Assembly: GCF_040954835.1 (NCBI RefSeq)
Contig: NC_090703.1
Span: 12,581,001 to 12,645,000, forward strand
Direction of reading: 5' to 3'
From: Lepisosteus oculatus
Taxonomy: Eukaryota; Chordata; Actinopteri; Semionotiformes; Lepisosteidae
Length of the DNA: 64,000 nt
Shown: piece by piece, positions 3,978 through 61,900 of the stretch
Position numbering within the stretch: position 1 is the stretch's first letter
Layout of the letters: every line of letters begins with the position of its first letter
Notes under the pieces: generated by a model
What the model saw: the letters and a program-made list of their open reading frames with translations, nothing else
What the model was told of the DNA's origin: nothing
Database searches by the model: none
Program-made: the position numbers and the translations under genes

Positions 3978-13535
<9,558 letters not shown>

Positions 13536-21100: not shown

Positions 21101-24100
21101 ATGCCAGACACAATGGACCCTGTACTGTTTTCTAAGCCTCCTGTGACTACTCCTGGCCTGAAGCATCTGAGACAAGAGCGCCTGTACTTGCAGTTCCTGC
21201 ACAGAATTTCCTCAGGCCTGACTTTCACCCAGGATGTGGTAAAGGAGAGAGGTCCTGACACCCTCTCATATAGCCAAATGGACTTCAGCCGGCTCTTCGA
21301 TGCTTCAGGACTCTTAACAACAACTGCAAAGCTTAAGAATCACACCTCACACAAGAGGGCCACTCCCAGACAGCTCCCTGTCTGTTCTTCAGGATGTGCA
21401 GAGGAATTAAGTAAGAGTTCACTTACAGGGCCAAAAAATACATACACCATTAGCACTCTGCCACCTGAGTTGCCCTCCTTGTTTCCCACAGAGCTGCCTC
21501 CTTCTCTGCACAGTGTGTCTGAACTGAGCACAGTTCAGAGGACAGATTCATGCTTGCTTCAGTCTAACCAAAGTGAAGCCCTCAATGTCTCTAAGAAGGT
21601 GAAAGGAAAGAGGAAGGCAAATGTTTCTGGTTCACTCAAAAAAACAGTTTCTGATGATTGCATCAGCAGCAGCAGCAAGTGGGATGAGTTTGTGTTGAAG
21701 AAGCTGACAAAGACCACTGCACAGTGGATAGTGAGCCAGCAGATGCCAGGTCAGAGTGCGAACAAAGCCCGGCTCCAGGACCTGCTCAAACAGCACTATG
21801 GGTCTGCCAGTGCCACGGATCTAGTGTGTGATGAGCCCATGAACATGGAGGATTTCCGCAGGTACCATGATCTCCCCAAGGAGGAGCCAAAGGAGCAAAT
21901 TGTGGACGGCACCCATCCAGAAACACCTCTTCCACTGTACTACAGGCAAGTGAAAAAAACTGACAGCAGAAGCTGTCAGGACACCATGACTCACTTTCCC
22001 ATACTGCATATATTTTAATATACTGAAAGGCATTAAACACACAACAGTGAATAATGGAACCAATAACATCTGTTATGTGTTGCATGTTTCTCATTATGTA
22101 TATTTACATACAGTAAACCTTAGCACAGTGGTTACGAAGAAGCATCTGGGAACCCTTTGGTATGTGTATTTCACACTGTCCAACTGGTATGACGATCAGG
22201 AGTTTACAATGGATGTTTGTGCACAGAAATAAGAAGTCCCACTTTTCATGTTTGTTTTCCTGTTGTGGTAGATAGAACAGTCACTAGGCACTGTAGAATC
22301 ACGCTGTCTAGTGATTCTAAGTACTCTTTACATTTACCTCTCCTTCCACCTTCTGTGCTCCAGAGTGCCTGGGTTCTGCCTGCTCCCCACCCAACCTGAT
22401 GAGCCAGGAGGAAATAATTGGACTGCAGACAATGTCAAGGTTAGGCATCTGGAGCCCCCACAGCCACCGCGTCTCCAGGATAGACTGAATCCCCGGGCAG
22501 GAAGATATGTCTACCACACTGACAACTCATTTGAACAGGAGCTCTATTCTGGTAAGGGCCCCAACTAGCTCTGTTGGTAGAGCATGAGACTCATAATCTC
22601 AGTGAAGTGGGTTTGTGTCCCATGTTGGGCACCAGGCCCTCCATGTTGGAGGTTGGGCACAAGGCTAACAACCCTCTCCTATCAAAAACTAATGTTACAG
22701 TTACAGCAACAGGATGTTGCTGTCCCTACATGCCGGAAGGCATAGTGGGCAAAGAGCCATCTATTCTGGTATAACCTCGTGACTTGATCTCATTCATGAG
22801 ATAGTATAAGTGTGGCTCTATGTCTCCTTTGCTTTGTCTGTTTTTCTGTGTGAATTCAGAGATCTCCAGGCAAGTACACCAACATGATGGAAGACAGAGG
22901 GATAGGATAATAATGGACAACAACTCGGAATACCAGAAACACCTCCAGGACCGTTTTCCCCGTGGTCCTGAGGAATGGAGTAAAATCGGGGCAGGAATCC
23001 GCCCCCCAAAAAGAACAGGTCAGGATGTACCCTTATAAGAACCTGAGACCATCAGCGTGAATACACTAAAAGATAACACATTCTATTACCTTGCAGAGAA
23101 ACCTTTATAATACTTCTTTCAGATACATTCACCCATTTTCTAACCACTTCGTACAATTTAAGGTTGCAGGAGAGCCAGAGCCCATCCCGACAAACAACAA
23201 GTGCAAGGCAGGATACACCCTGGACAGGACCCAAGTCCATTGCAGTTGAACACACAGACACAAACACGCACAGTGGGCCAGTTTTCCCAGATGCCAGTTC
23301 ATTTATGTCTTTGGACTATGTGAAGGAACCTGAGCATTTAAAGGGAAACCCCCAAACACAGAAAGAACATAGATGCTTTATTGTCCACTTCTGTGGACAT
23401 TTGTCTTTGGCATCTCCCACAGACGTACAGAACACACACAAGCAAAACATAAGAGTCACATAAAATCACAATGACAGTATGTGATAGATACATACATAGA
23501 TGGATGAATAAATAGGTGGAGGAGGGAATACATTTACATACATCTCCACACAAATAGCACCCCAGAATTGAACTAAGGGCCCCAGTGCTGCAAGGCAACA
23601 ATTCTAACTACCTTGCCACCCTCTCTTTCAGATACAGTGCTTCCCAAAACAAAACTTGTACGTACTGTTTCAAACTCCACAACAAAAGCCTCTTACCCTC
23701 CTTTAATTATGTCAACATCTATAAATGAACACATTGTAATAACATGTTTATATAAGCCTACTGTTATTCAAAGACTACAATCACAGTTAAAGAAAGGGGC
23801 CAGTTGGCTCACTTCATTCTGTATCTTCCTGCAGCAATTCTGAAGCCTGAGAAAGGGGCCAGGCGATGGGTTAGCCTGCCCAGCCCGGCTGACTATGCCA
23901 TGGAGAGAGGACTGCAGCCCCCCGACTACAGCGGTCAGGACACTATCCTGCCTGGCACGCTTAGAAAGCAGCCCCAGAGCTGCCCCCCACAAGAGCGCCA
24001 CGCACTGCGGTACATGGTGGAGGAGTGGAGGAAGGCCTGGAAACTCAGTGGGTGACCTTTCTTTCTTTGCTGTCTGTTTGTCTCTGTCAATAAGACAGCG

Positions 24101-33100: not shown

Positions 33101-33714
33101 GGCGCAACAGCTTGAGCAACGCGAAGGGAACCCGCCCTTTCCAAAACGGATTGAAAACATTCAATGATTCAGGTGCAAGGAAAACAGAAAGGATACTTTT
33201 TCAGAGAAGTGAGAAAACAGGTAGCGTCTGCGGAGGTCAGAGGTTACCTCGTTAATGTCGTGCCTCAATGCTGCAACTTGTTCAGCTTCAAGGAGTTGAG
33301 GAGAGAAGACAGTTATGTCTCTGGGGATGCCATCCACGTCCTGCAACACGGCAAGGAAGCCGAGTAAGCATCTCATTACCATGTGCATTATACTTCAGTT
33401 CACACCACAAGCATAAAACAGAAGGAAAAGGAACCCCGAGGAAAAGTGAAGCATTTTTGTCAAATACCATGTCTCAGGGGAAGAACATGATACGTATCAT
33501 TTAAAAACGTGAAGTGGACTGAACCTAGAAAATACAGCTGGATACATGCTGAAAACCCGTGTACACTTCAGATTGATTCGTTTGAGTAACGTCCGGTGGC
33601 TCAGTTGAAAGCGTGCTCTACCCTCACCTCAGACAGCGCTCCGGAAGCCACACATCTGGCCAGCACCTGGGCTGCAGGGGTCACGGCATAGGGCGCCGGC
33701 ACCCAGGGATTCAT
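30138..33714 (-). CDS. haus2: HAUS augmin-like complex subunit 2, six coding exons
   Basis: HAUS2 is a subunit of augmin, which recruits gamma-tubulin to spindle microtubules. Minus-strand coding exons in order: 33714-33628, 33340-33248, 33053-32984, 32676-32544, 31968-31860, 30257-30138. They give 203 residues with matching phases. Family blocks are the N-terminal MNPWVPAP, then SLEVELLQLEKEGAEVTH, then [33 protein letters not shown], and SDVEELSKQILQWKDLQ near the end. The protein is largely heptad-like coiled coil. The HRY junction requires a GC donor (CAG|GCAAGT) at the end of the fourth coding exon. The last exon stops after PEKH, so the protein is about 30 residues shorter than human HAUS2. 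A non-coding first exon probably ends at 34251 (CTTAG|GTGAGA). lrrc57 diverges on the other side. Confidence 0.9.
31105..31195 (-). repeat. Short fragment of the 5S-derived SINE family
   Basis: It starts with AATAATAATAATTCC, then TATATAGCTCTTTCCTGGAC and AATCCACTCAAAGCG. This matches the 3' end of the element at 50165-50930. It lies in haus2 intron 6. Confidence 0.6.
31620..31832. mobile_element. Palindromic MITE
   Basis: The left end (AGTCCTGGTTCTGGAGTGCTGG) and the right end, read inward (CACCCCTGGTCCTGGAGGGG), are diverged inverted repeats. They belong to a common fish non-autonomous DNA transposon family. There is no coding capacity. It lies 28 bp from a haus2 exon. Confidence 0.6.
32095..32260. 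repeat. Two head-to-head copies of the CAGCATGGAATAAACC repeat
   Basis: About 32098-32190 carries the repeat on the minus strand (TTCCATGCTGAAAG, CAAAGGAGCAGGTAAAG, AGGCAGCTGCGT). About 32200-32255 carries the pyrimidine tract and tail on the plus strand (TTTCAGCAAGGAATAAACCC, TTACCTGTTCCTTGACAG). It sits in haus2 intron 5. Confidence 0.6.
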
Positions 33715-34250
33715 CTCCAGGGCAGGGACGCGCCACTCATCAACTGAAATCATCATCGGTATCATTCGGCACTGAATAACAAGCACTGATCGGTAAAGAC
33801 GACAAAGGCACTGTTGGTGTTGGGTGTTGGTGATGAAACAGGAAAATGCAAGACAAATAAGATACATTTCAGACGTTGCACTTACTTCTAACCCGTAGCT
33901 TACTGTAAGTACAAAACATGTACCGGTAGTGGTTATGTTTACAGTTTTTTTTATGCAACCCAAAACCGTTAAAAATCTAATGGAATTAAACAAAATCATT
34001 TAAATAAATTCGAATAAACATCTGCAAAAATCTGAAAGCCGTCGAACACACAATTACTGACATTTTCGAGTGCAGTTCTTTTTGATTCAGCTTGAAGGAG
34101 ACAATACATTTTCTTAATCCCCATTTAAAACTTTAAATATAACAAGACTCATATTTCGCCGCTGGTAGGTTCGCTAGAAGAATATATCACCTTAGCGTGT
34201 TTGAGAACAGGAAGGATCCGTGTTATAATACAACATAACAATAATCTCAC

Positions 34251-34340
34251 CTAAGTGTGATCTTATTTTCCCTCTGCAGTCCCATCACTGCCATTCTATT
34301 TTAAACAATCCCGCACCCGCCTCTTTTCTGCGCACACTGA
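34251..34340 (-). other. Presumed non-coding first exon and start region of haus2
   Basis: On the minus strand a good donor (CTTAG|GTGAGA at 34251/34250) pairs with the acceptor TGATTTCAG just upstream of the coding start. A CRE-like TGACGTA lies near 34341 on the plus strand. The 5' limit is inferred, not seen. Confidence 0.5.
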
Positions 34341-34569
34341 TGACGTATTTTAAAAGCGATTTGGTAATTTGTCAAATTTGTTTCCTCGCCTAACATAATA
34401 ATACAAGACATTTGCACAATTTTAATGTCAAATCACTTATTTTATTGCAGAATTAGTTGCAAAATAAAGATGAGGTTTACTGCGGCTGATATTTTTCAGT
34501 TTCTTAAATAATAACATAATAGCACGAACGTGAACAACATTTTGCCATGTTGTCAGTGCCAGTCTTGTT

Positions 34570-34750
34570 TGAGGGTTCAAGGTAAAAGTTCCGTGAAGTT
34601 GCCCCCCCCCCCCCTAAAGACAGCACAAACGATTAAACCCACTTCATTCGTTAGTGCTGCGTTTGTGCCGGTTTGTGTCGCTGTAAGTAGCGTCTGTGCT
34701 GCTTTCGTTTCAGAGATGTAGCGCCTTGTTTTTTCGGGTAATCACGTGAC
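34570..34750 (-). repeat. Left arm of an inverted repeat pair
   Basis: Read on the minus strand this matches 36822-36995 at roughly 80 percent. Long shared blocks include AGCACTAACGAATGA and GTGGGTTTAATCGTTTGTGC. Both arms end at a TCACGTGA palindrome. A run of 14 C lies near 34602-34615. Confidence 0.8.
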
Positions 34751-34904
34751 TATTTACAAGGACATTTACGGGTACCAACAAACTGGGTACTTGAACTCCT
34801 GATTGTGATTAAAACAATGCGGGCAATTTGTTTTCCGAGTCCGTCTTTTCGGGTTGGGTGGATGTTTCAGTATATTTCAATATAGCGCCTTCTTTTCCTG
34901 CCTT

Positions 34905-34925
34905 TGACGTCACTCTGTGACGTAA
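34905..34925. promoter_or_regulatory. Pair of CRE sites
   Basis: A full CRE palindrome, TGACGTCA (34905-34912), is followed 13 bp later by TGACGTAA (34918-34925). It lies in the divergent haus2-lrrc57 region. Binding is inferred from the motif only. Confidence 0.4.
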
Positions 34926-35568
34926 AAACATTTAAGTCACGACTACCAGATCTTTCAGTTGCGCTCTTTTGACCAGTTGACCCCAGACTTTGCAGCCTTT
35001 ACACGAATAAACAGTCTTACATTTAGGGAGGAGTTGCTATGTTAGCTCATTGGGTAAGGTGTTTCTTTTAATTTTTAACCATGTTCTCGAAAATGTATTG
35101 CTTGTGCACTCCTTTCATTAGTGGTGAAGAGACACCAGTTTCCAAATTACCGCTGGTACAACACGAGAGCCCATATTCACATTTTTATGTATTAGTTTCA
35201 AGATCGAAATAATTTAACAATAAAAACAAAATTGAAAGCACTAGCATAATAATATAATGATCACAGACTTTACATTTCTATTCATTTTTACGTACATAGT
35301 AGAAGGTGTTTCCCCTACCTTAAATATACAAATTAAAATTGTTCAAATACCATGTATTCATTACAGAAAGCAGCGGAGACAGTTATATTGCAAATAAAAA
35401 ATGTATTTATTTCGAAGAGTACGGGACATTGTGAATCAATAAAGACGTTAAAAAAATAAGACGTGTAGTTATTTTGCAAATAAGTAAAGCATTTTAAAAA
35501 TAGCTTCTCATTAACAAAAAACAAGCCGATCCACCCGGCGCTGCTAGCTTGAACAGCTCTCAGACCCG

Positions 35569-35655
35569 TGATTGGCTAAACCCCCGAACAGCTCGGGCCA
35601 CGATTGGGTGAAGATTGAGAATCGACACTCTGATTGGGTAAAGCGCCACAGCGGA
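35569..35655. promoter_or_regulatory. Triple CCAAT-box (NF-Y) array with ETS-like site
   Basis: ATTGG occurs at 35571, 35603 and 35633, each in a favourable GATTGGnT context, spaced 32 and 30 bp. GCGGAAGTTC near 35651 resembles an ETS site. Arrays of CCAAT boxes about 31-33 bp apart are typical of vertebrate cell-cycle promoters. The transcript it would serve is not identified: haus2 exon 1 is about 1.3 kb left, lrrc57 about 1.7 kb right. Confidence 0.5.
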
Positions 35656-35814
35656 AGTTCTGTGTATACCGTGTGTGCTGTATGAGCACGCTGGATATAC
35701 AGAAATACATCCAATGGTTTCCAATTTCTGATCAAGCTTAGAGAAGTCGCACTGAGGTCAAAACTGAATAGCAGACAAAGAATGCCATGGCATCCACAGC
35801 ACGTTCACGATTCC

Positions 35815-36530
35815 GACAGCATGTCACGATAGGAGTACGCGCACATCGGACACATCGCGATACCCATTTTGACTGGCGGATCACTGTCAAGGCGCCACTG
35901 TTGCGACATTAAGTCCATATATCGCGATATGACATACACGACAAAATGCCCCCGCCCCCATGTCCCGACATGGAGCCCGCATATCGCGATATGACATACC
36001 CCGGCAAAAGTGCCCCGCCCCCATGTCGCGACATGAAGCCCCCATGTCGCGATATGAGATACCCCGGCAGAAGCGCCCCGCCCCCATGTCGCGACATGAA
36101 ACCCGCATATCGCGATATGACCTACCCAGCCAAAATGCCCTGCCCCCAGGTCGCGACATGAAGACCCCATATCGCGATACGACATACCCCGGCAGAAGCG
36201 CCCCGCCTCCATGTCGCGACATGAAGCCCGTATATCGCAATATGACATACACCGACAAAATGCCCTGCCCCCATGTCGTGACATGGAATCCATATGTTGC
36301 CATAGAACATACCCTGGACAGGATATGCTGACCCCATGTTGCGACACAAAGTCCATGTATCACGGCACGTCCTATCTGGGTATATCATGTCCTGATATGA
36401 GACCTTTGTTGCGACAGCAGTTCCAGGGTGGCATGGAACCAAGGCGCCAGTCGTGATATACACTGCCGCGATATACATGGGGTCCCAATCATGACATGCT
36501 GCGGAGCTCTTGTCGCAATGGTATCCCACA
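35815..36530. repeat. 62-63 bp palindromic satellite array
   Basis: The core (about 35898-36345) contains seven to eight units with intervals of 62, 63, 63, 62, 63, 62 and 63 bp. Each well-preserved unit has CATGTCGCGACATG followed by CATATCGCGATATG, both 14-bp palindromes centred on TCGCGA, centres 21 bp apart. Between them lies a C-rich linker including CCCCGGCA and GCCCCGCC. Odd and even units differ slightly, suggesting a two-unit higher-order repeat. Units decay at both ends (for example 35821-35860 and 36385-36520). CpG is dense, which is unusual for old fish repeats. Long open frames across it arise from the repeat and are not genes. Confidence 0.9.
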
Positions 36531-36821
36531 ATTACGCGTTTGGCAACAGCATGTCAGGGTAGGGAAAGCAAAGGAAAACGTGCCATAGAAAATAAAAACC
36601 ATGGATCTTACAATCACGATTATTTTACATACATTAGAACCACAGGTTTATGTCACAGATGTTAATTTGTTGGCATGCGTCAAGTCTTAGTATTATTCAC
36701 ATCTAAGGAGGCTCATAGTTTATGGATGTTGTCTTTAAAATGTTAAGGTTACGAGCTAAACTATAACTGAGCGCTTGAACTCGGCAGACGGGGTCACTGG
36801 AGGTCAAAGTCACCGTGCATG

Positions 36822-36995
36822 TTCACGTGATCACCGGGAAACTAAGGCGCTATATCTCGGGAACGAAAGAAGCACAAACGCTAATTTCAACGGCACAAAC
36901 CGGCACAAAAGTAGCACTAACGAATGAGGTGGGTTTAATCGTTTGTGCAGTCTGTAGGGGGGCCATCTTCATGGAGCTCAAGGTGAACTTCGGTA
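36822..36995 (+). repeat. Right arm of an inverted repeat pair
   Basis: This is the inverted partner of 34570-34750. It begins at TTCACGTGATC, runs through GGCGCTATATCTCGGGAACG and GTGGGTTTAATCGTTTGTGC, and ends near AGGTGAACTTCGG. The pair spans about 2.4 kb and encloses the CCAAT array and the satellite. Confidence 0.8.
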
Positions 36996-37376
36996 ACAGA
37001 ATAGAAAGGGCATCTCTTTGGCCCTTCAAACTGTGCATTGTATAGACTAATCATAATTATGTCTTAATTAAAATATAATGTTCAGATTAAAGTACTAACT
37101 TCAGGTGAGATTATCAAAATAGCGAATATCAAATTAGTCATTTTTTCTACGTTTTTTAAAGAGAAGCAGAATTTCATGTGATCCCTTCTTCAAATAGTCA
37201 CGAAACAAATTAATCCCTAGTCTAGCAACGTAGTGTTCTTCCATATATACCAAAATTTTATAATTAACATATGATCCAGACCAAGTGTTTATTTGTTTTT
37301 TCAAAAGTGCAATATACCTTGAACTTTTTAAAATACATGTCAAGATATAAAAAGTTTTAGAGCTTAAGGCTGTTTT

Positions 37377-37399
37377 GTTGCCATTGGTAACATGGCTGC
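37377..37399 (+). promoter_or_regulatory. X-box and overlapping YY1-like motif, presumed lrrc57 promoter
   Basis: GTTGCCATTGGTAAC (37377-37391) fits the RFX X-box with a three-base spacer. AACATGGCTGC (37389-37399) overlaps it and resembles the YY1 site often found at vertebrate transcription starts. A candidate donor (TTCAT|GTGAGC at 37500) and acceptor (CCCGTACAG at 38225) would join this region to the lrrc57 start exon. Confidence 0.45.
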
Positions 37400-38174
37400 T
37401 CGGTGGGCTAGCCCATTTCCTTTCGTCAGCAAGTTTGTCTTTTCTGTTTCCGGGAGATTAAAAACAAAATCTTATTTAGCGGCTTCTGTTCTCAGTTCAT
37501 GTGAGCCCGTGTTGTTGTAAATAGAGCAATCATCTTAACGCACCGAAAATAAGCTTTGGGAATCAGGTAACAACAATCGTTTTGTTTTGCTTCGTTAATG
37601 TTTAAAAACAATTGAAAATAATCAACATATTTATTTTGTGTTTTTGTTACACAGCTAAAATCATTGTAGCGCGATCTGTTTGAGAGTACAATATTATCTG
37701 TTGTAATTTAGACGTATATTTCTGCGTATTTCAGAAAATATTGTTTTGTGCTAAGTTTGCAATAACGTGACTCTGGCGCCTTCCTTGGCATGTTGTTATT
37801 TAATGTAAGTCGTATCAAACTACATTGCTTTGTAGCCTGATTGAAACTTGCACCTAACAGTATTTTAAAATGTTTCTATCAGGATCAAGGGCGTTCGTCT
37901 GTTTCTTTTTTATTATTTTTTTCACGCCATCCTAATAAACCGACATGTTTAATAAAGTATTATTATTAAAAACGTCCCATGTTATAACACTTTAAAGAAA
38001 AACAGTCATTTTAACGCTTTCATGTTACATTGGGCTATTCTTTCAAGTGAGATTGGTAGTGATTTTTTTTGTTTTTGTACGGGAAAACAATACCATTGCA
38101 CAGTCCGAATGAATCAGGCGAAAGGAAAAAAACTGTAGGTGGTACAACAACATAACTGTAGTTATTTCGATTAA

Positions 38175-42443
<4,269 letters not shown>

Positions 42444-43950
42444 AGTCTGGCTTCTGGAGGGCACTTTTAAGAATGGAGGAGATGGGATTTACAGTATAGC
42501 TTCCTCTATACCTGTCAGTAACGGGAGAACAAGGAGAGAGAGGCTGTATGATCTCACAGAGCCATCAGAAGGACAGAGCTACTCAGCTGTCCAGAAGACT
42601 GGAGACCACTTCCACAGCACAGAATGCAATTTTTTAACACAAAACTGCATATATATGCATGGGCTGCATATAGAGATTTGATTGATTTCTCACTGATAAA
42701 TTGGTTGAAAAAGGATAGGTCTGTAAGATTAATCCTTTAAACAATTTGGTATGTGATCCTGCCAAAATAATTACCTTTCTCAATACTCAACACTATTCTA
42801 GACCTGTGTCTAGAGAAAATTGTGTAAATGTTATTTTTTATTAATTGGCAATCTTCACTATCCACTTTGCTCTCAATACATTGGGCCTATTTCTGAAACA
42901 ATGCAGGAGTCTCATGAAACAAGTAAAGTTGTTACCTTTTTTAAAAAGTGCAGTGTAATAATGATAGTATTTATATGCATTGCTTGTATGTACTTCAGGT
43001 TTTTATAAACATTAAAAACAGCTTCATTAGCAAAAAAAAATGTTGGCCCAATGTCTTGCGTGCTTTTCTCTTTCGCTTTTCTCTCTTTATTTATGAAAGT
43101 AGGGGATTAAAAATGACGACCTCTCTGTGAGCATTTTCTCATGAAATGTTGTGTGTATGCAAATAATACATTATAAAGCATTTGTATCTATATATTGAAA
43201 TTAAATGTGTTTTATAACCATACTATTGTTTGATTTAGAAGTGTGTAAAGTGGTGTGAGAATTTAAAAGGAAAGCGAGATGATGTAAGCTTCTTGTTTAC
43301 TACCGAAAGGTCTTCAAAATGTGTTATCGAAAAAACAGTTTTTCAATCTGAGGATTTTGACGATAGTTAACGTTGTACTTCCTTCCAATATATGACGTCG
43401 GATTTTATTTAAATGCTGATTAGAGTTCAAACTATAAATTGCCTCCTGACACATTTTAAGCACGTTTTTTTCCCCTTAGATGAGTGAAAATATAAACACT
43501 AGAGCTATTCGCTAAGAACGCGAATGTAGTCGTTAAATTATATTTTAAAATATATCCTTAAAATATTTCAAAATTAATTTGTAATTACGACTTGAATATA
43601 TTATCTCGGTATTTCAAACACCGCAAAGACTCGCTAGGCGGCGCGTGTCCTGCACATTTCTGCCCAAGGAAAAAAGCGAATTCGGAGTTCAGCTGAAGTA
43701 GCTCTTTTTTTCCATATACAAGGAGAAAGAACTGAAAAAAATTGGTTTAATTTTACCAAGGGGAGTCTAATATAAATATAATTAGTCTGTTGCAACATTT
43801 ATCAAAGATTGACTGGGAGGGGTTGTTTTTCAAGTCAAGTCTAGAGCGACGGAATGTATAGAACGATTTCCGATTGTCGAGTGCGGCTACTGCTGTCCCA
43901 AGTTTCCACATTTTCTCACATCAAGACAGGACGCCGAGCTTTTCGGCTAC
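42444..43950. other. lrrc57 3' UTR and lrrc57-tyro3 intergenic DNA
   Basis: No coding or RNA gene is visible. The part after about 43620 is less AT-rich and presumably carries the tyro3 promoter and 5' UTR. Confidence 0.5.
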
Positions 43951-43956
43951 AATGAG

Positions 43957-46900
43957 ATGAAAATGAAGCTCTTTGGACTCTGGGTTGCCTTTCTCCTGGC
44001 GAGCACTTATCGATGTGGTGAAGGTAAGCGATTTTCGGATGATTCAGCTTACCTTGCCGTGTTCGCTGTTTAGGAATTTGATGTGTGATTTATTCAACTG
44101 TGCAACTTCGAAAAGGGAAACTAACGTTAACTAATGCACTATTTGTATCTGTTACGTTACAGTATACAATATCGTAGAGAAGTCTGGTGAAATATCTTTG
44201 CATATATTTTGTTGTTGTTGTATGTCCCAAAGGAGCAACAAACACGTCCCTACAACAAATCCGTTTGAGGTTAATCTGTTTTGCAATAATTAGACGCGAT
44301 TTAAGAATAAATAGCGAACAGTTTCTTTTTGATTTCCAAGACACATTTAGCCAGTGTGTCAGCATTTTTTTCTAACCAGTGCTGGAAGTGTACTATCAGT
44401 ATCAGTTAATCGCTTTCCCAGCAAGATGCGATCAGTGATTTCCATCAGCAAGGTAATCGGTTTTGAAAAGGCCAGCGTTTAAATTCCGCAAAAAAATGAG
44501 CATGAATATAACATGTAACTAATTCTGTTTGCAGGACTTCACGTTCTGAATTTCTAAGTAAAGAATAAATTATATGGATGGATGATTTACAGAAGCATTT
44601 GAAAATGCGCCTGATTACCCGTTACAAAGAAATGATGACATATATTTATATACTTGGGTTTAGAATACTATGAAAGGAGTGGTTAAAATTTCGTTGTTTT
44701 GTTCCGCTCTGTTCTGATCTGTCGCTTAATTCCCCAAAGTCTTTAAAATGTAATTACACCTAGCGAAATGTACAATTGCAGGAATCACTCTGACTATGTT
44801 TACACCAAAGTATAGACTGAAAAATAAAATAACTCTTTGCGTGCTAAATTCTGATTTGACTCTTAGCGTCATTGAAGGTTTTGTCAGTGATGCTCTCCAG
44901 ATTAAAATAAAATCTTTCTGAAGCAAAATCGTTGGGTTTATAGTTCTAAAAATGTTTTCAAACTACAGGATTCTGAAAATACCTAGACTTTGAAACGCAA
45001 CTGCTTTATTTCCGAAACTGACCGGTTAAATATCTCCTTGCCAAGTGACCATAAACAGAAATATTTGCATTCCTTCTTAGAAGCTTCTTATATTGCTTTC
45101 TGTGACTGTACCAGCAACTAAATGGACAGGTTGTGATATAACACAGATAAAAACCTCTTCCGGTTTTTATGATCTTGTTTAATTGTTTTAGAGTCTGCTG
45201 TCATAGGCACCCCTGCCCTCCACAGATTAATTCATTTAAACAATGCAAACTGTATGAAGCAAGATGAAAAATATATAGTTAGTTTAAGAATAGTTTCTTA
45301 AAGCGCCGCTGAGCTACCTCCACAGATAATTAAACATTTTTCCAAATTAAACAGCCATTTTATACAATACGATGTCCTACTGTTCCACGAAGGGTATTGC
45401 ACCCTCAGGTGCGATTGTAAAAGAATATTTTTGTGCGTGGTCACTTAAATTGGGCGGAATATCAGGAAGTGCAAAGGTATGGAAGTGATCAGGCCTAAAA
45501 ATAAGCTTAAACATTATTACAAATAATGGCAATCTTAGCTCATACAGGGCAGTTTAATCTTCTTCACATAAGTGCATGGAATCTATCAAAGTAGACTTTT
45601 AGAATACTAAAAAAAAGTTGAAGATTTTCGTAAAAAATTGATGTTTGGTGTCTGTGTGGAGTTAAAATTGCCAAAACAAGTTGATTAAGAATTGGTATGA
45701 ATAGATATGCAAAACATGATGGTGAATGCTAGAACACTAAGCGAATGACCCACTTGACCAGTGAGCAGTGATTGTGTGGTCCCTCTGAGCAGGACCACCG
45801 TAGGGAACCTGTTCTGTGACAGTGTGGAGAGGCCAGGAGAGACAGGTTATGTTCTGACAAGCCACACCGGCTGAGAGCGGCTGAGTTTTCTGTCTGCAGT
45901 GGCTACAGCACATGAAATTCCAGGAAGAAATGACTGCAGTTCCCCATCTGCTTGGACATCATTTGCATGCCTGTAGGCTGTTCAGGGTTAACCTGTTTAC
46001 CACACAGAGACTCAATCACTGTCTTCAGGTGGCCAGCACGCATCAGAGGTGGAGGAGAAGGGAGTGGTGAGGTTTTACTCACAATAAAGGCTGTTTAACC
46101 TTGACATAGTGTGGAGATTGTGCAATGGGTGGAATGCTGACTGTGGCATGAACGCAGCGGAAATATGATGATATACAGAGGAGTCTCCTTTCATACCAGA
46201 ATGTCTCTGGTGCCGGCTCTGAGCAATCTTACTGCTCGGAGACTAATTGCAATTTCCATAATACTTTACTGTACTCTTGTGTGAGTCCAGTGCTTCACCT
46301 GAGAATATCCCTTCTTTGTAGGTATTCACAGACAGATGTTCTTTTGTCAGTGTTCTGAAATATCATAGGACGTCGGGCCTCCTTTTGGTGAAGACAGCGA
46401 CCATTATGATGAGACAGTACAGTCAGACCCAGCTATAGTGTGCAGACATAATACAGAGCCTCTGCTCTTTTCAGCAGGATAACTTACAATGTCACAGTTA
46501 ACACGTCCAGCCAAACAGAGATGTGTATGGTTATTACGCAGTATCATGGAAGCCAAAAATATGACCTTTTTTATTTAAATCTACAACCTACAGTTACAAA
46601 ATTTCCTAATTTTACTATAAAAATGATGAGGTTGTAGGCAAAGAGACTCATAATCCACTAACCAATCGCAAGCTCAGCTTCCCATTTCTCTCAGTTCCTG
46701 GCATTGCCACACTCATGGCATTTGAACTGCATGATTCCAGGTTCATTTTTACTGGGAAAGGATTGGTCAGAACTTGACCCTTTTTGTGCATCAGGTCATC
46801 ATTGTATTGCGGGTCATCCCAGTTGTCTTTTGTGTGATCCTGGAGAAACGGGTGCCCTGTCAGACACCCATGCTACATGGGTCGCACAAAAACTGCGAGC

Positions 46901-55900: not shown

Positions 55901-58900
55901 AGTAATGTCACCATATCATGGACCCCAGGCTTCAATGGATACTCCCCCCTGATGTCCTGTACTGTCCAGGTACCACACTATACTAAAGTACTGCCCCTTC
56001 TTTCTCCTGAGTCCTTGCTCAGCTGAAGCTCATCTGGCCCTGTCTTACCCTGAGCCATACAGTTAAACTGTCCAGCACTCTCTCCTTTGGCCTCCAGACT
56101 CTGTTCACCTCTGTCAGTAAGTGCAGTCAGCCTGCCTTGACATCTCTTTTGCTCTTAGCTAATATCTCCATCCAAACAGTCCTTACACACACACAATTTT
56201 ATGTTTCAAATCTCATTCAGCTCTTTCTTATCCTCCCTCTTTCTCTTTCCTTATAGACTTTTGCTATATGAACAGCTATAGTAAATAACTGGGAATATTT
56301 AGAGGTGTCTGCCAAAGCTCCTTCAGTATGCAAACAATTGTTTTTTTCCTCAGAGGAGATTGTAGAAGGATGGCCAAAAAAGCATTTCAAGCCCTTTGCT
56401 ACTTAGGCTATTTAAGGGGGCATTTTATTTTTAGTTTGTTTCTTTGTTTTCAGAAGGTGGTGTGGTCAGTTGAGATGCCATTACAGTCTGTTCTTAAACT
56501 GATTGCAGTTTCCAGTGGCTGGACATGAGCCAAATGACTGCCTGCAGCCTGTCCACTGCAGAGCCTCATCTGACTGGGGATGACAATAGCGATTTAGTTG
56601 TGCACCCTATAGTCTGTGGTCAGTTGTCCTATGATTCAGGTTTATAAAAGAGAACAAAGTCTGTTTTGTGGCCAGCATGTGCAACATTAAGGAATTGCAA
56701 GTTCAGTCTTTTTTAAAGTGTAACTAGGAGAGGTTTTCAGATTTCAGGTCCGTCTTAATCCAGTTAGGGAGGGAAAAGAAGGAACTTTGGCCAAACATAC
56801 TGTTTAACGATTTTTTTTTCCTACGTGTGATTTCAGACACAGAAGATTCTCTAATTCTTTATTCTCTTCCTGCCAATTAAGTAAAATAAGTTGGATTAAG
56901 TTTTATTAATCCCTGAAGAAGAAACCTGATTTTTTTTTGCCACTGTTTTGTTTTGTGTGTGTTGAGCCTTTTGGGATATAAGGTTGTGTGAAATGCAGGT
57001 ATTTCATTTTTCAGATTCTTCAACTTTTGCCCAATTTATTTCAACAGCTTAATTTGGTCCACTGACACATTGCATTTTTGTCTTTATAAACTATTCAACA
57101 GATGTCAAAGAATTCTGGGAAGAAGATGGAAACTTTAGAGCATTATGTGACTGTACCTCCCTTCCAGCACCTCATTGGAGGGCTGAAGAGCTTTTCAAAC
57201 TACAGTGCAAGAATCTGCTGTGAAAATGAGGTTGGGACCTCTCCTTTCTCACACTGGGTAGATTTCCAGACAAAAGAATCAGGTTGGTGAAAAAGTCACT
57301 GCTGAAAGCCTGCTGTAGGGCTGTCATTACATGCTTATCTATTTATAAGTCCTCCCTCTCATTACATTTTGAAGTATCTTCCTTCTCCTAAAACTTGACA
57401 CATGATTTATCAACTCTTATATGGTACTTGTACTACAGGAGTGTTCTTCACAAGAAAACCACATCTAAATTTCTTTTGTGATTGGCGTACTGACAACCAG
57501 GTCTTCTTCAAGCCACTAATTAAATGCATAAATGTTAAGGGTTTTGCTGTTAAAGCCAGTTCTTATGACTCATATGAGCAACCTAAAAACTAAGAACTGG
57601 GCAGTACTGTTGATATGTTGAAATATAAAACAAAAGCCTGCTTGTGTAACAGCACAAAAGCATTAGGCTTGAGACACCTCTATATTATGATAAAGTCAAC
57701 TGCAGGGTTTTCTGTGCACAATGCAAAATGTTCATGGCCTTTGTGTGAACGATGAAGGGGGATTATAGCCGAGAGAAAATGTCACGTACAGTTTGGGGCA
57801 CCAGTAAAGACAAAAAAAAAAACAGCGCCAAGCTTCGTGGCCTGAAGCCCTCAAACAAATAAATGGACGAATGGACAGGCTTTCCTCCCCCACCTCAGTG
57901 TGAGGATTGGAGGGCTGGCGGCAGGGGGGGATGAGGGAACAGCAGTCTTGGCAGGGAGGGGGGAGATGCAGAGGAGTCTGGTTTGACCTTGTTTGCAAGT
58001 TTGTAAACTCGGAGACCTGGCAGGGTGCCAGCGGATTCAATCCCTAAGTGTACAATGAAGCATTGTCAGTGTCCCCAATCCTCCTCAGTAGAGCACAGGG
58101 CACCTCCAGTCTCTGGCGCCATCTAGACCGAAGCCGGGCATTACAGCTTCAGATCATCTCTTTACCATGCTCTAGGGGAGATCCTTGGAACACCCTTGGA
58201 AATTAGGGGGTCGCATTACCTGTAACTGTTTCTATTTTGATGGAGGGAATGAAAACATGTTGGATTCCATCCCAAATTGCCTACTGCACCACTTAGTCAG
58301 TTGTCAAAGAGCACTTTAAAAAACCTTTAGTACAGTATGCTCAAAACTCACCAGACAGACATCTGTCTAGGTCTCGTTCTGGCAATCATATATCCTGTTT
58401 GTATTATATATAGACTTCAGGATATTTCATATGCATCTTTCCCCAACTGTGTTACTACCTTCTTTGTAAATTGCATCCCTTGCCACAGGCTCTGGGCCTA
58501 TGACTTCTTATTTGTCCTCTCAATTACGTTGTTACCTAAGTGAGAGCCTTCTCCTGCTGTGCACCTGGACTGTGGAAAACTCTTTCCTATACTTTTGAGA
58601 ATAATGAGCCTTTCCATTTTCAGATCTGGCTTTGAAACTTACTTAAAACAATAGATTTTATTATATCTGTATTCTATTGTTTGTTGGTGTATTGTATGTA
58701 ATTCTTTGTTTTTTATTGTTTGCAGTTTTTGTGGAGGTTGTTTGTAAAGGCACTTTATAAAATAGGCTGAGTATCGTAATCTATCTTAAATGTACCATTT
58801 ACAGTGCCTTGCGAAAGTATTCGGCCCCCTTGAACTTTTCAACCTTTTGCCACATTTCAGGCTTCAAACATAAAGATATAATTTTTTTATTTTATGTGAA

Positions 58901-61900
58901 GAATCACCAACAAGTGGGACACAATTGTGAAGTGGAACGAAATCTATTGGATTTTTGAAACTTTAACTAATAAAAAAATGAAAAGTGGGGCGTGCAAAAT
59001 TATTCGGCCCCCTTGCGTTAATACTTTGTAGAGCCACCTTTTGCTGCGATTACAGCTGCAAGTCGCTTGGGGTATGTCTCTATCAGTTTTGCACATCGAG
59101 AGACTGAAATTCTTGCCCATTCTTCCTTGCAAAACAGCTCGAGCTCAGTGAGGTTGGATGGAGAGCGTTTGTGAACAGCAGTTTTCAGCTCTTTCCACAG
59201 ATTCTCGATTGGATTCAAGTCTGGACTTTGACTTGGCCATTCAAACACCTGGATACGTTTATTTGTGAACCATTCCTTTGTAGATTTTGCTGTATGTTTG
59301 GGATCATTGTCTTGTTGGAAGATAAATCTCCGTCCCAGTTTCAGGTCTTTTGCAGACTCCAACAGGTTTTCATCCAGAATGGTCCTGTATTTGGCTGCAT
59401 CCATCTTCCCCTCAATTTTAACCATCTTCCCTGTCCCTGCTGAAGAAAAGCAGGCCCAAACCATGATGCTGCCACCACCATGTTTGACAGTGGGGATGGT
59501 GTGTTGAGGGTGATGAGCTGTGTTGCTTTTACGCCAAACATATCGTTTTGCATTGTGGCCAAAAAGTTCGATTTTGGTTTCATCTGACCAGAGCACCTTC
59601 TTCCACATGTTTGGGGTGTCTCCCAGGTGGCTTGTGGCAAACTTTAGACGAGACTTTTTATGGATATCTTTGAGAAATGGCTTTCTTCTTGCCACTCTTC
59701 CATAAAGGCCAGATTTGTGCAGTGTAAGACTGATTGTTGTCCTATGGACAGACTCTCCCACCTCAGCTGTAGTTCTCTGCAGTTCATCCAGAGTGATCAT
59801 GGGCCTCTTGGCTGCATCTCTGATCAGTCTTCTCCTTGTCTGAGCTGAAAGTTTAGAGGGACGGCCAGGTCTTGGTAGATTTGCAGTGGTCTGATACTCC
59901 TTCCATTTCAAGATGATCGCTTGCACAGTGCTCCTTGGGATGTCTGAAGCTTGGGAAATCTTTTTGTATCCAAATCCGGCTTTAAACTTCTCCACAACAG
60001 TATTACGGACCTGCCTGGTGTGTTCCTTGGTCTTCATGATGCTCTCTGCGCTTTCAACAGAACCTTGAGACTATCACAGAGCAGGTGCATTTATACAGAG
60101 ACTTGATTACACACAGGTGGATTCTATTTATCACCATCAGTCATTTAGGACAACATTGGATCATTCAGAGATCCTCGCTGAACTTCTGGAGTGAGTTTGC
60201 TGCACTGAAAGTAAAGGGGCCGAATAATTTTGCACGCCCCACTTTTCATTTTTTTATTAGTTAAAAAAGTTTCAAAAATCCAATAGATTTCGTTCCACTT
60301 CACAATTGTGTCCCACTTGTTGGTGATTCTTCACATAAAATAACAAATTTATATCTTTATGTTTGAAGCCTGAAATGTGGCAAAAGGTTGAAAAGTTCAA
60401 GGGGGCCGAATACTTTCGCAAGGCACTGTATATCAAAAGCCACACAGTTGACAATGTTTCATTCTAGCACAGGGTGTTTGAGCTGAACCTGCATTTGTTT
60501 AGAGGTTTCCTTGCAGATGTCAGATCTCTGCTGCTGCCGTTGCAGGCCTGTGTGTCCAGTGTTCGGTTGATCTAGATCTCTCTAGCTCAGCTGGATCACT
60601 GAAGATAGTCGATTACTGCTCCGCTGTCATGGGGATTGAGGTGTGTGTGTCCAGAAGACACGGTCACCTGACTGCTCTTTGTCCCACCAGTGCCCATGGC
60701 TGCCCCCCTGAATTTGACCGTCCAGCTGACAGAGCAGCAGCTGTCCTTCCGCTGGGAGGCCCTGGAGGAGGAACAGCTCAATGGTGTGCTGTGGGGCTAC
60801 AGAGTGCAGTGGGAGCTGGGGGGGAAGAGTCAGGTACAGTGGCCCTGCGTCCTGTGTCATCACGTCGGTCTTCCTGCATTTGTGTTAATTACTGTGGGGC
60901 TCGGGGAAGGGCTGCAGATGTTGGGCCTGGCATGCTTAATTAACCCCACTGTCCAGAGCATGTGCGTAGCTTGAGTGCTAGAGTTCACCAGGCCTTGTGT
61001 GTCTGATTGATTGTCCCCTGCATGCATACTTCATACTGCATGCATACTGGATCCAGTTACCAGCAACCCTTAAGCCGTAGCTCAGGTAAAAATTAAACCA
61101 CAAGGCTCACCAAGAGTCAGCTTGCCCTGTAAAGTGGTTTGAGGGTTGTCAGAGGAACCCTCCCTAACCCAGGGATCAGTTCCCAGACACATAAGGCCAT
61201 TTTTCCCAGAGGTGTCCTGGATTCCCTCTACTAATCCACTACATTTGTAATTTATAGTGATGTCACGTGAATGTTTAAAATGTAACATCTAACAGAGATG
61301 TCATGAACTTTTAAACTGATTGAGGATATATTGGTATATTCTGAGGGATTCTACAGGCAGGTGTGGAAAACTGAAAGAGATCGTGACAGTAGTAAAGATA
61401 ATCAAACAATTCCAGGAATTTTGTCAATCTTTATAACATTTTATTATGCATGCCCTCTTTCATATCCCAGTTTCATATTTCCTCTTTTTGCTTAGAGTAT
61501 ATATCCTAAAACCCTGCTGGTTGCATCAGAATCCTAGATTGGTACAGGAAACAAATGCTTGCTCAGGTTTGGTAAATAATTTCAGTGCATTACTGCCCCC
61601 TGCAGGAATTGCAGTTCAGGGAGAATAAAGCCAACCTGTCCAGCGAGGGCCAGTTCTTCAATGCTTCTTTCCGGGTCTCTGCCTGCACTGCAGTGGGCTG
61701 TGGACCCTGGAGCCCACCTGTCATGGTGCTGCCAGCCCAGGGTGAGTCTGTCAGTGCAGAATCCAAACTGCAGGAACATCACTGTGCTACTCAAGGTGGA
61801 CACATTCCAGGGACCTTACGGAGCATGCCGAAGGCATCTCGCGTAATGTGTTTCTAAAACACACAAGCATCAGCGAACAGGTGTTGAACACCATTAGTGG

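Follow-up and report, generated by a model that had tools for sequence, protein, structure and literature searches.

In a 64-kb window of the Lepisosteus oculatus genome (RefSeq assembly GCF_040954835.1, contig NC_090703.1, positions 12,581,001 to 12,645,000 of the forward strand; all coordinates below are those of this 64,000-nucleotide stretch), eight tandem units of 62-63 bp, each carrying two versions of a palindrome centred on TCGCGA, lie in a CpG-rich island near the middle of the 4.7 kb separating the divergent genes HAUS2 and LRRC57. The 10-bp palindrome cores are better kept than the remainder of the units when all units are counted, and five of them fit exactly the hDRE, the target of human ZBED1/DREF. 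Based on the hDRE fit at five places and on the setting of the array, we tentatively read it as about two dozen ZBED1/DREF-type sites forming a homotypic cluster, amplified as a 62-63 bp minisatellite in the island between HAUS2 and LRRC57; we put the chances of this reading somewhat short of even.

An array of paired palindromes

The array was detected by Tandem Repeats Finder (TRF) at 35899-36285 with a period of 62-63 bp (score 507), and with a score of 560 at a period of 125 bp. The eight copies of the first palindrome (site A) start at 35899, 35961, 36024, 36087, 36149, 36212, 36274 and 36337, in full agreement with the unit intervals listed in the first-pass annotation of this DNA (62, 63, 63, 62, 63, 62, 63). 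The second palindrome (site B) is found at +21 in all eight units, confirming the 21-bp spacing proposed there, and the step from site B to the next site A is 41 or 42 bp. Both palindromes had been described as present in every unit: this is true of the A/B pair, but not of the 14-mers themselves, since CATGTCGCGACATG is exact in three of the eight units and CATATCGCGATATG in two. Over the 16 unit sites, the core TRTCGCGAYA is exact in eight, differs at one position in six and at two positions in two. The word TCGCGA occurs 10 times in the window, always within 35855-36219 (1.52 expected; 10 reached in 0 of 100 shuffles).

The alignment of the units (35896-36395) contains a single 1-bp indel column, which is the sole length change, and the linker indels said to have preserved the helical phase therefore come down to this one column. 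Identity reaches 90% between units u3 and u5 and 89% between u4 and u6, and u8 is just 48-56% identical to the other units. These likenesses and the best-scoring 125-bp period indicate that the array probably grew by two-unit duplication. Three of the eight units carry a GC box (GCCCCGCCCC) in the linker, presumably a Sp1/KLF-type word. Satellites, the term used for this DNA in the first-pass annotation, form long arrays at many loci; the window holds one array, of eight units.

Two other descriptions of the array were tried and rejected: a unit made of three 21-mers (the A and B segments agree at 14/21 positions, but at 2/7 outside the 14-mers, and the third segment agrees with them at 7/21 and 4/21, the level of chance); and a protein-coding array (open reading frames of 123-183 amino acids overlap it, and the one at 35808-36356 on the minus strand gave only Pfam LEAP-2, at a sub-cut-off E of 0.055). 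A search for other copies with the array pattern returned 16 stretches of viral contigs, each with a single match, taken as chance. Among the papers listed in the open-licence PMC literature for TGTCGCGACA, TATCGCGATA, ZBED1 with tandem repeats, motifs and promoters, and HAUS2/LRRC57, none dealt with such an array, judging by titles and abstract openings; no paper was found for ZBED1 together with CGCGACATA, and excerpts of PMC6648343 and PMC3262029 had no bearing on the array.

The palindrome cores fit the hDRE

The hDRE has the consensus TGTCG(C/T)GA(C/T)A, and DNA binding by ZBED1/DREF needs self-association, as stated in an excerpt of PMC6179265; the consensus is given identically in an excerpt of PMC8775481. 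TGTCGYGAYA is exact at five places in the window, all of them in the array; these make eight strand hits where 0.10 would be expected, a number that none of 100 shuffles attained. Besides the example given in Table 1, these sites begin at 36045, 36087, 36212 and 36274. The fit of the kept core to the hDRE of a self-associating protein gives indirect support to the dimeric DNA-binding protein suggested in the first-pass annotation, where ZBED1/DREF was not named. In fish, a flatfish zbed1 is described as a homologue of DREF and hDREF (PMC10967968, in part).

The array resembles the hDRE/ZBED1 sites known from the promoters of ribosomal protein and proliferation genes in the 10-bp palindromic consensus, exact at the five places, and in its setting, a CpG-rich region between divergent genes. 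It differs from them in number and position: the known site is near the transcription start, whereas here there are about two dozen, mostly in a minisatellite and at least 1.9 kb from the nearest start codon, and the B sites are for the most part either decayed or of the TATCGCGATA variant. The Drosophila DRE (TATCGATA; bound by DREF) is related both as a palindromic word and in its protein family, but this word of 8 bp does not occur in the 64-kb window, and the word of the array has an extra central CG.

The CGCG element shares the TCGCGA core and the CpG-island setting; it is known in several copies per promoter and is bound by BANP, and by Kaiso when methylated. According to the excerpted text of PMC6192621, this element (TCTCGCGAGA) drives two-way CpG-island transcription that scales with copy number, is separate from the hDRE, and is also active as variants with TAT/ATA flanks. 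Site B resembles these TAT/ATA variants, and the array could consequently be a CGCG-element array in which site B acts like the TCTCGCGAGA of CpG-island promoters, with BANP as the factor. We consider this very unlikely: TCTCGCGAGA has no match in the 64-kb window with up to one mismatch allowed, and the TGT/ACA flanks of site A are those of the hDRE, held distinct from the CGCG element (PMC6192621, in part). The doubt already expressed about BANP and Kaiso was thus well founded.

Conservation of the cores inside and outside the units

Compared with the core consensus, 13 of 160 cells are changed in the 10-mers of the eight units and 76 of 336 elsewhere; with the sites taken as 14-mers, the figures are 27/224 and 62/272. 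As the units share ancestry, minimal changes per column were also counted: 11 in the 20 core columns versus 50 in the 42 others over the eight units (p = 0.01), a count that leans toward the cores, u7 and u8 having been admitted for carrying sites; and 5 versus 27 over the six TRF-defined units (p = 0.03). The contrast is strong in the edge units (9/60 core cells changed, 56/126 elsewhere; p = 4.5e-5), and it holds for non-CpG positions alone (5/96 in cores, 62/288 elsewhere). When the placing of the sites was shifted around the unit, the true placing of the 10-mers ranked first of 62 and that of the 14-mers sixth of 62. The two best-kept 10-column windows, with five changes each (median 13), are the one that coincides with the exact hDRE in site A and its neighbour one column further on, and the window of site B ranks ninth of the 62 starts, tied with the eighth. 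Since the best-kept stretch is the 10-bp hDRE, a ZBED1/DREF target fits better than the CGCG element. The claim that the palindromes are better kept than their flanks is therefore moderately supported for the 10-mer cores over all units, where it rests on the edge units; it is weaker for the 14-mers, and not significant in the five core units alone.

The sites extend beyond the interval 35898..36345 first assigned to the array: further ones exist outside the units, from 35822 to 36520, giving about two dozen in units and surroundings. In the flanks without the units (115 + 175 bp, limits set after the sites were known), six sites with at most two mismatches were found versus 0.51 expected (0 of 3000 dinucleotide shuffles reach six), and seven versus 0.56 by shuffles when 17 bases of the last unit are included. 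Aligned with the whole unit, the flank segments are equalled by 1, 5 and 0 of 289 random segments; aligned with the palindrome-masked unit, 78, 262 and 262 of the 289 score as high, which is background. The words thus persist in flanks where the unit is no longer recognisable. The remaining island has no excess of sites (1 and 2, versus 1.6 and 1.4 expected).

A minisatellite evolving neutrally inside an unmethylated CpG island, in which repeat turnover by unequal exchange makes the palindromes look kept largely from recent shared ancestry, would account for several of these features: the two-unit duplication; the decay at the edges, as in an ordinary array; the contrast in the five core units, which is not significant either in minimal changes (4 versus 16, p = 0.18) or in changed cells (4/100 in cores, 20/210 in the rest, p = 0.065); and the kept CpGs, most of which are explained by the island described below with no role for the array. 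However, the edge units and the outer sites retain cores while their linkers are lost, and minimal changes favour the cores in both the eight-unit and the six-unit counts. We regard this account as rather unlikely.

Helical phase of the sites

The first-pass annotation had made exact helical phasing the organising rule of the array, and nucleosome positioning one of its possible functions; neither is supported. At 10.45 bp per turn the unit sites share a phase (R 0.97), but it hangs on just two independent distances, one spacing and one unit length, copied with the unit, and random units reach it in 2-4% of trials, with ranges of unit spacing and length that we chose ourselves. The seven outer sites, including the one at 36388, have no common phase (R 0.50 at 10.5 bp per turn, p = 0.18), and their mean cosine to the core phase is -0.2 at 10.45-10.5. 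We give hardly any credence to the idea that the phasing of the array serves to position nucleosomes or to build a protein filament along one side.

Table 1 Features of the palindrome array and its surroundings in the 64-kb window.
Feature	Position	Strand	Basis or detail
Tandem array, eight units of 62-63 bp	35896..36395	.	TRF, site map, unit alignment
Site A (TGTCGCGACA type) and site B (TATCGCGATA type) in each unit	within 35896..36395		21 bp apart
Exact hDRE on both strands, site A example	36024..36033	.	pattern search
GC box GCCCCGCCCC in unit linker	36012..36021	+	second copy at 36075; CCCCGCCC also at 35950
Left outer sites, each with one mismatch, at 35822 and 35853	35822..35862	.	site map, shuffle enrichment
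Two-mismatch site	36388..36397		spans the end of the last unit (36395)
Right outer sites 36407, 36449, 36464 and 36511 (1-2 mismatches)	36407..36520	.	site map, shuffles
CpG-rich island holding the array	33400..38400	.	CpG observed/expected 0.96, G+C 0.41
Probable first coding exon of HAUS2	33628..33714	-	start codon 33714; end placed by eye at a GTGAGG donor
Probable first coding exon of LRRC57	38394..38477	+	translation; start codon 38394; exon end by eye
Left arm of inverted repeat	34584..34749	+	141-bp core 34609-34749 and weaker outward extension
Right arm of inverted repeat	36823..36977	-	141-bp core to 36962 and extension
TCAAGGT, candidate target-site duplication	34577..34583, copy 36978-36984	+	direct repeat outside both arms

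The CpG island and the neighbouring genes

The observed-to-expected CpG ratio (o/e) of the 5-kb island contrasts with 0.34 for the rest of the window (43-45 kb left out), and the highest value among 98 other 5-kb windows is 0.57. CpG is thus undepleted at a promoter, as in non-methylated islands, the promoter being placed from the gene starts. Non-methylated islands are general at vertebrate promoters, cold-blooded species included (PMC3583005, in part). The island gives indirect support, from base composition, to the unmethylated CpG element that had been put forward. No special property of the palindromes is needed, however: without the array the o/e of the island is still 0.92, indicating that the kept CpGs are mainly a property of the island, and 8 of the 32 CpGs in the palindromes have disappeared, 6 of them to become TpG or CpA, indicating that palindrome CpGs decay too.

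HAUS2 lies to the left on the minus strand, and its downstream exons match Pfam HAUS2 (7e-11) and HAUS2 PDB chains (3.1e-4); a database search with the first exon gave no match, and we assign it to HAUS2 by resemblance. The gene to the right, in which a later open reading frame at 40578 encodes a leucine-rich repeat (E 1.3e-18), we take to be LRRC57; on this side, inspection by eye suggests a donor near 37566 and an acceptor near 38226.

Several other words were also observed in the island. A promoter-like group at 35565-35660 adjoins the array and consists of ATTGG, the inverted CCAAT, at 35571, 35603 and 35633, with GCGGAAGT after them at 35651; TGACGTCA and then TGACGTAA form a CRE-like pair at 34905-34925; and GTTGCCATTGGTAAC, a palindromic X-box-like word, is found at 37377-37391, possibly near the start of an LRRC57 transcript. 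A second CpG-rich, low-GC stretch (o/e 1.05) occupies 43000-45000, with a short signal-peptide-like reading (MKMKLFGLWVAFLLAS..., by eye) at about 43960.

An inverted repeat enclosing the array

The first-pass annotation missed the inverted repeat that encloses the array. The arms are identical at 121 of 141 positions (34609-34749 versus the reverse complement of 36823-36962; E about 1e-40), and beyond a run of C they agree outward at 11 of 14 more positions (3 of 20000 shuffles); longer stretches further out or in are no better than shuffles. This agreement is what the terminal inverted repeats of a DNA transposon would show. Each arm has a TCACGTGA palindrome at its inner end, and the whole (34584-36977, about 2.39 kb) can be listed as an unclassified DNA transposon candidate. 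Within the 141-bp arms, which are 14% apart, eight CpGs are shared and three are present in one arm only, none of these facing TpG or CpA in the other; this lack of TpG/CpA counterparts points to a largely unmethylated germ-line state of the arms.

Just beyond both arms, TCAAGGT is a candidate target-site duplication: a 7-bp word shared within 20 bp outside the arms was reached by 42 of 5000 shuffles and by 69 of 5000 random place pairs. This word, picked out after the fact, sits 4 bp off the left 14-bp extension, and it is one of three 7-bp words common to the wider flanks. No transposase family rose above the cut-off in the six frames of 34500-37100 (DUF7451 at 0.065 and LEAP-2 at 0.022 fell below it), and no second copy of the inverted repeat was found in the 64-kb window. 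A search with a 20-mer of the arm returned no match in viral contigs and one in genome contigs (bacterial, 22 bp shared), taken as chance.

Judged from the arms and their surroundings, a non-autonomous DNA transposon of 2.39 kb that includes the array is a serious possibility. Elements of the hAT type end in short terminal repeats and produce an 8-bp duplication. The candidate is similar to them in its clusters of short words inside inverted repeats, which in hAT elements are subterminal and bound by BED-finger proteins, and differs from them in its arms of about 155 bp, in a target duplication that is possible and of 7 bp, and in the failure to find a transposase in 34500-37100. Transposases of this group bind terminal and also subterminal repeats, and the ZBED factors of vertebrates arose from hAT proteins by domestication (PMC8097297, in part). 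The palindromes could accordingly be nothing but present or past transposase sites inside such an element (about 34584-36977), with no present host role. The enclosing repeat with its extension, the TCAAGGT direct repeat and the binding habits of hAT transposases speak for this; the position and multiplicity of TCAAGGT, the lack of similarity further out, of a transposase and of a second copy within the regions searched, and the length of the arms compared with hAT ends speak against it. We hold it to be rather unlikely.

Apart from this candidate, the window includes an open reading frame of a Tc1-type transposase at 58797-60433 (339 amino acids; Pfam HTH_Tnp_Tc3_2, DDE_3 and HTH_SB) between inverted repeats that are 97% alike, apparently a young copy. 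Two further genes were recognised: an open reading frame of the TMEM151 family at 11976-13535 (Pfam 4.1e-210) and a tRNA-Met (CAT) gene at 22559-22634 (Rfam and ARAGORN).

A proposed cluster of ZBED1-type sites and its possible role

Several observations weigh against reading the array as a cluster of ZBED1/DREF-type sites. Five of the 16 unit sites fit the hDRE and the other 11 differ from it by at least one base; site B (TATCGCGATA) differs at one position on each strand; and the hDRE was matched to the array post hoc. In 20 of 22 cases among human ribosomal protein promoters, the known ZBED1 sites are located 11-73 bp ahead of the transcription start (PMC3575287, in part), whereas the outermost sites here are about 2.1 kb from the start codon at 33714 and about 1.9 kb from that at 38394, distances that are measured to codons and not to transcription starts. 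The excerpt of PMC6192621 also describes a gene with the CGCG element as unaffected by ZBED1 knock-down. To these are added the results given above for the five core units and for the 14-mer placing, the lost palindrome CpGs, the admission of u7 and u8, and the flank limits.

On the ZBED1-type reading, a regulator of the ZBED1/DREF type, dimeric, with a BED finger and of hAT origin, would bind the palindromes, the number of sites would have been raised by minisatellite amplification of the 62-63 bp unit, and the bound cluster would act in the region between HAUS2 and LRRC57. The protein would be ZBED1 or a close relative, and its binding could help to keep the island open and unmethylated and could support the transcription of HAUS2, LRRC57 or both.

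The ZBED1-type and transposon readings are compatible: given the subterminal binding of hAT transposases and the hAT ancestry of the ZBED factors, both may be true. In a combined version, which we consider distinctly unlikely in its entirety, a transposon brought a block of palindromes in between the two genes, this block has since become the central element through which ZBED1, a domesticated transposase of the host, acts on their shared unmethylated promoter region, and amplification tuned the number of sites.

If the array is indeed of the ZBED1 type, it would be a natural test bed for what this factor does: repeat turnover can alter the number of sites, so that alleles and species could be set side by side for binding, methylation and expression. 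Should the enclosing element be a transposon, a domesticated transposase would be tied to a transposon-derived locus, and the passage from transposon word to promoter word would become testable.
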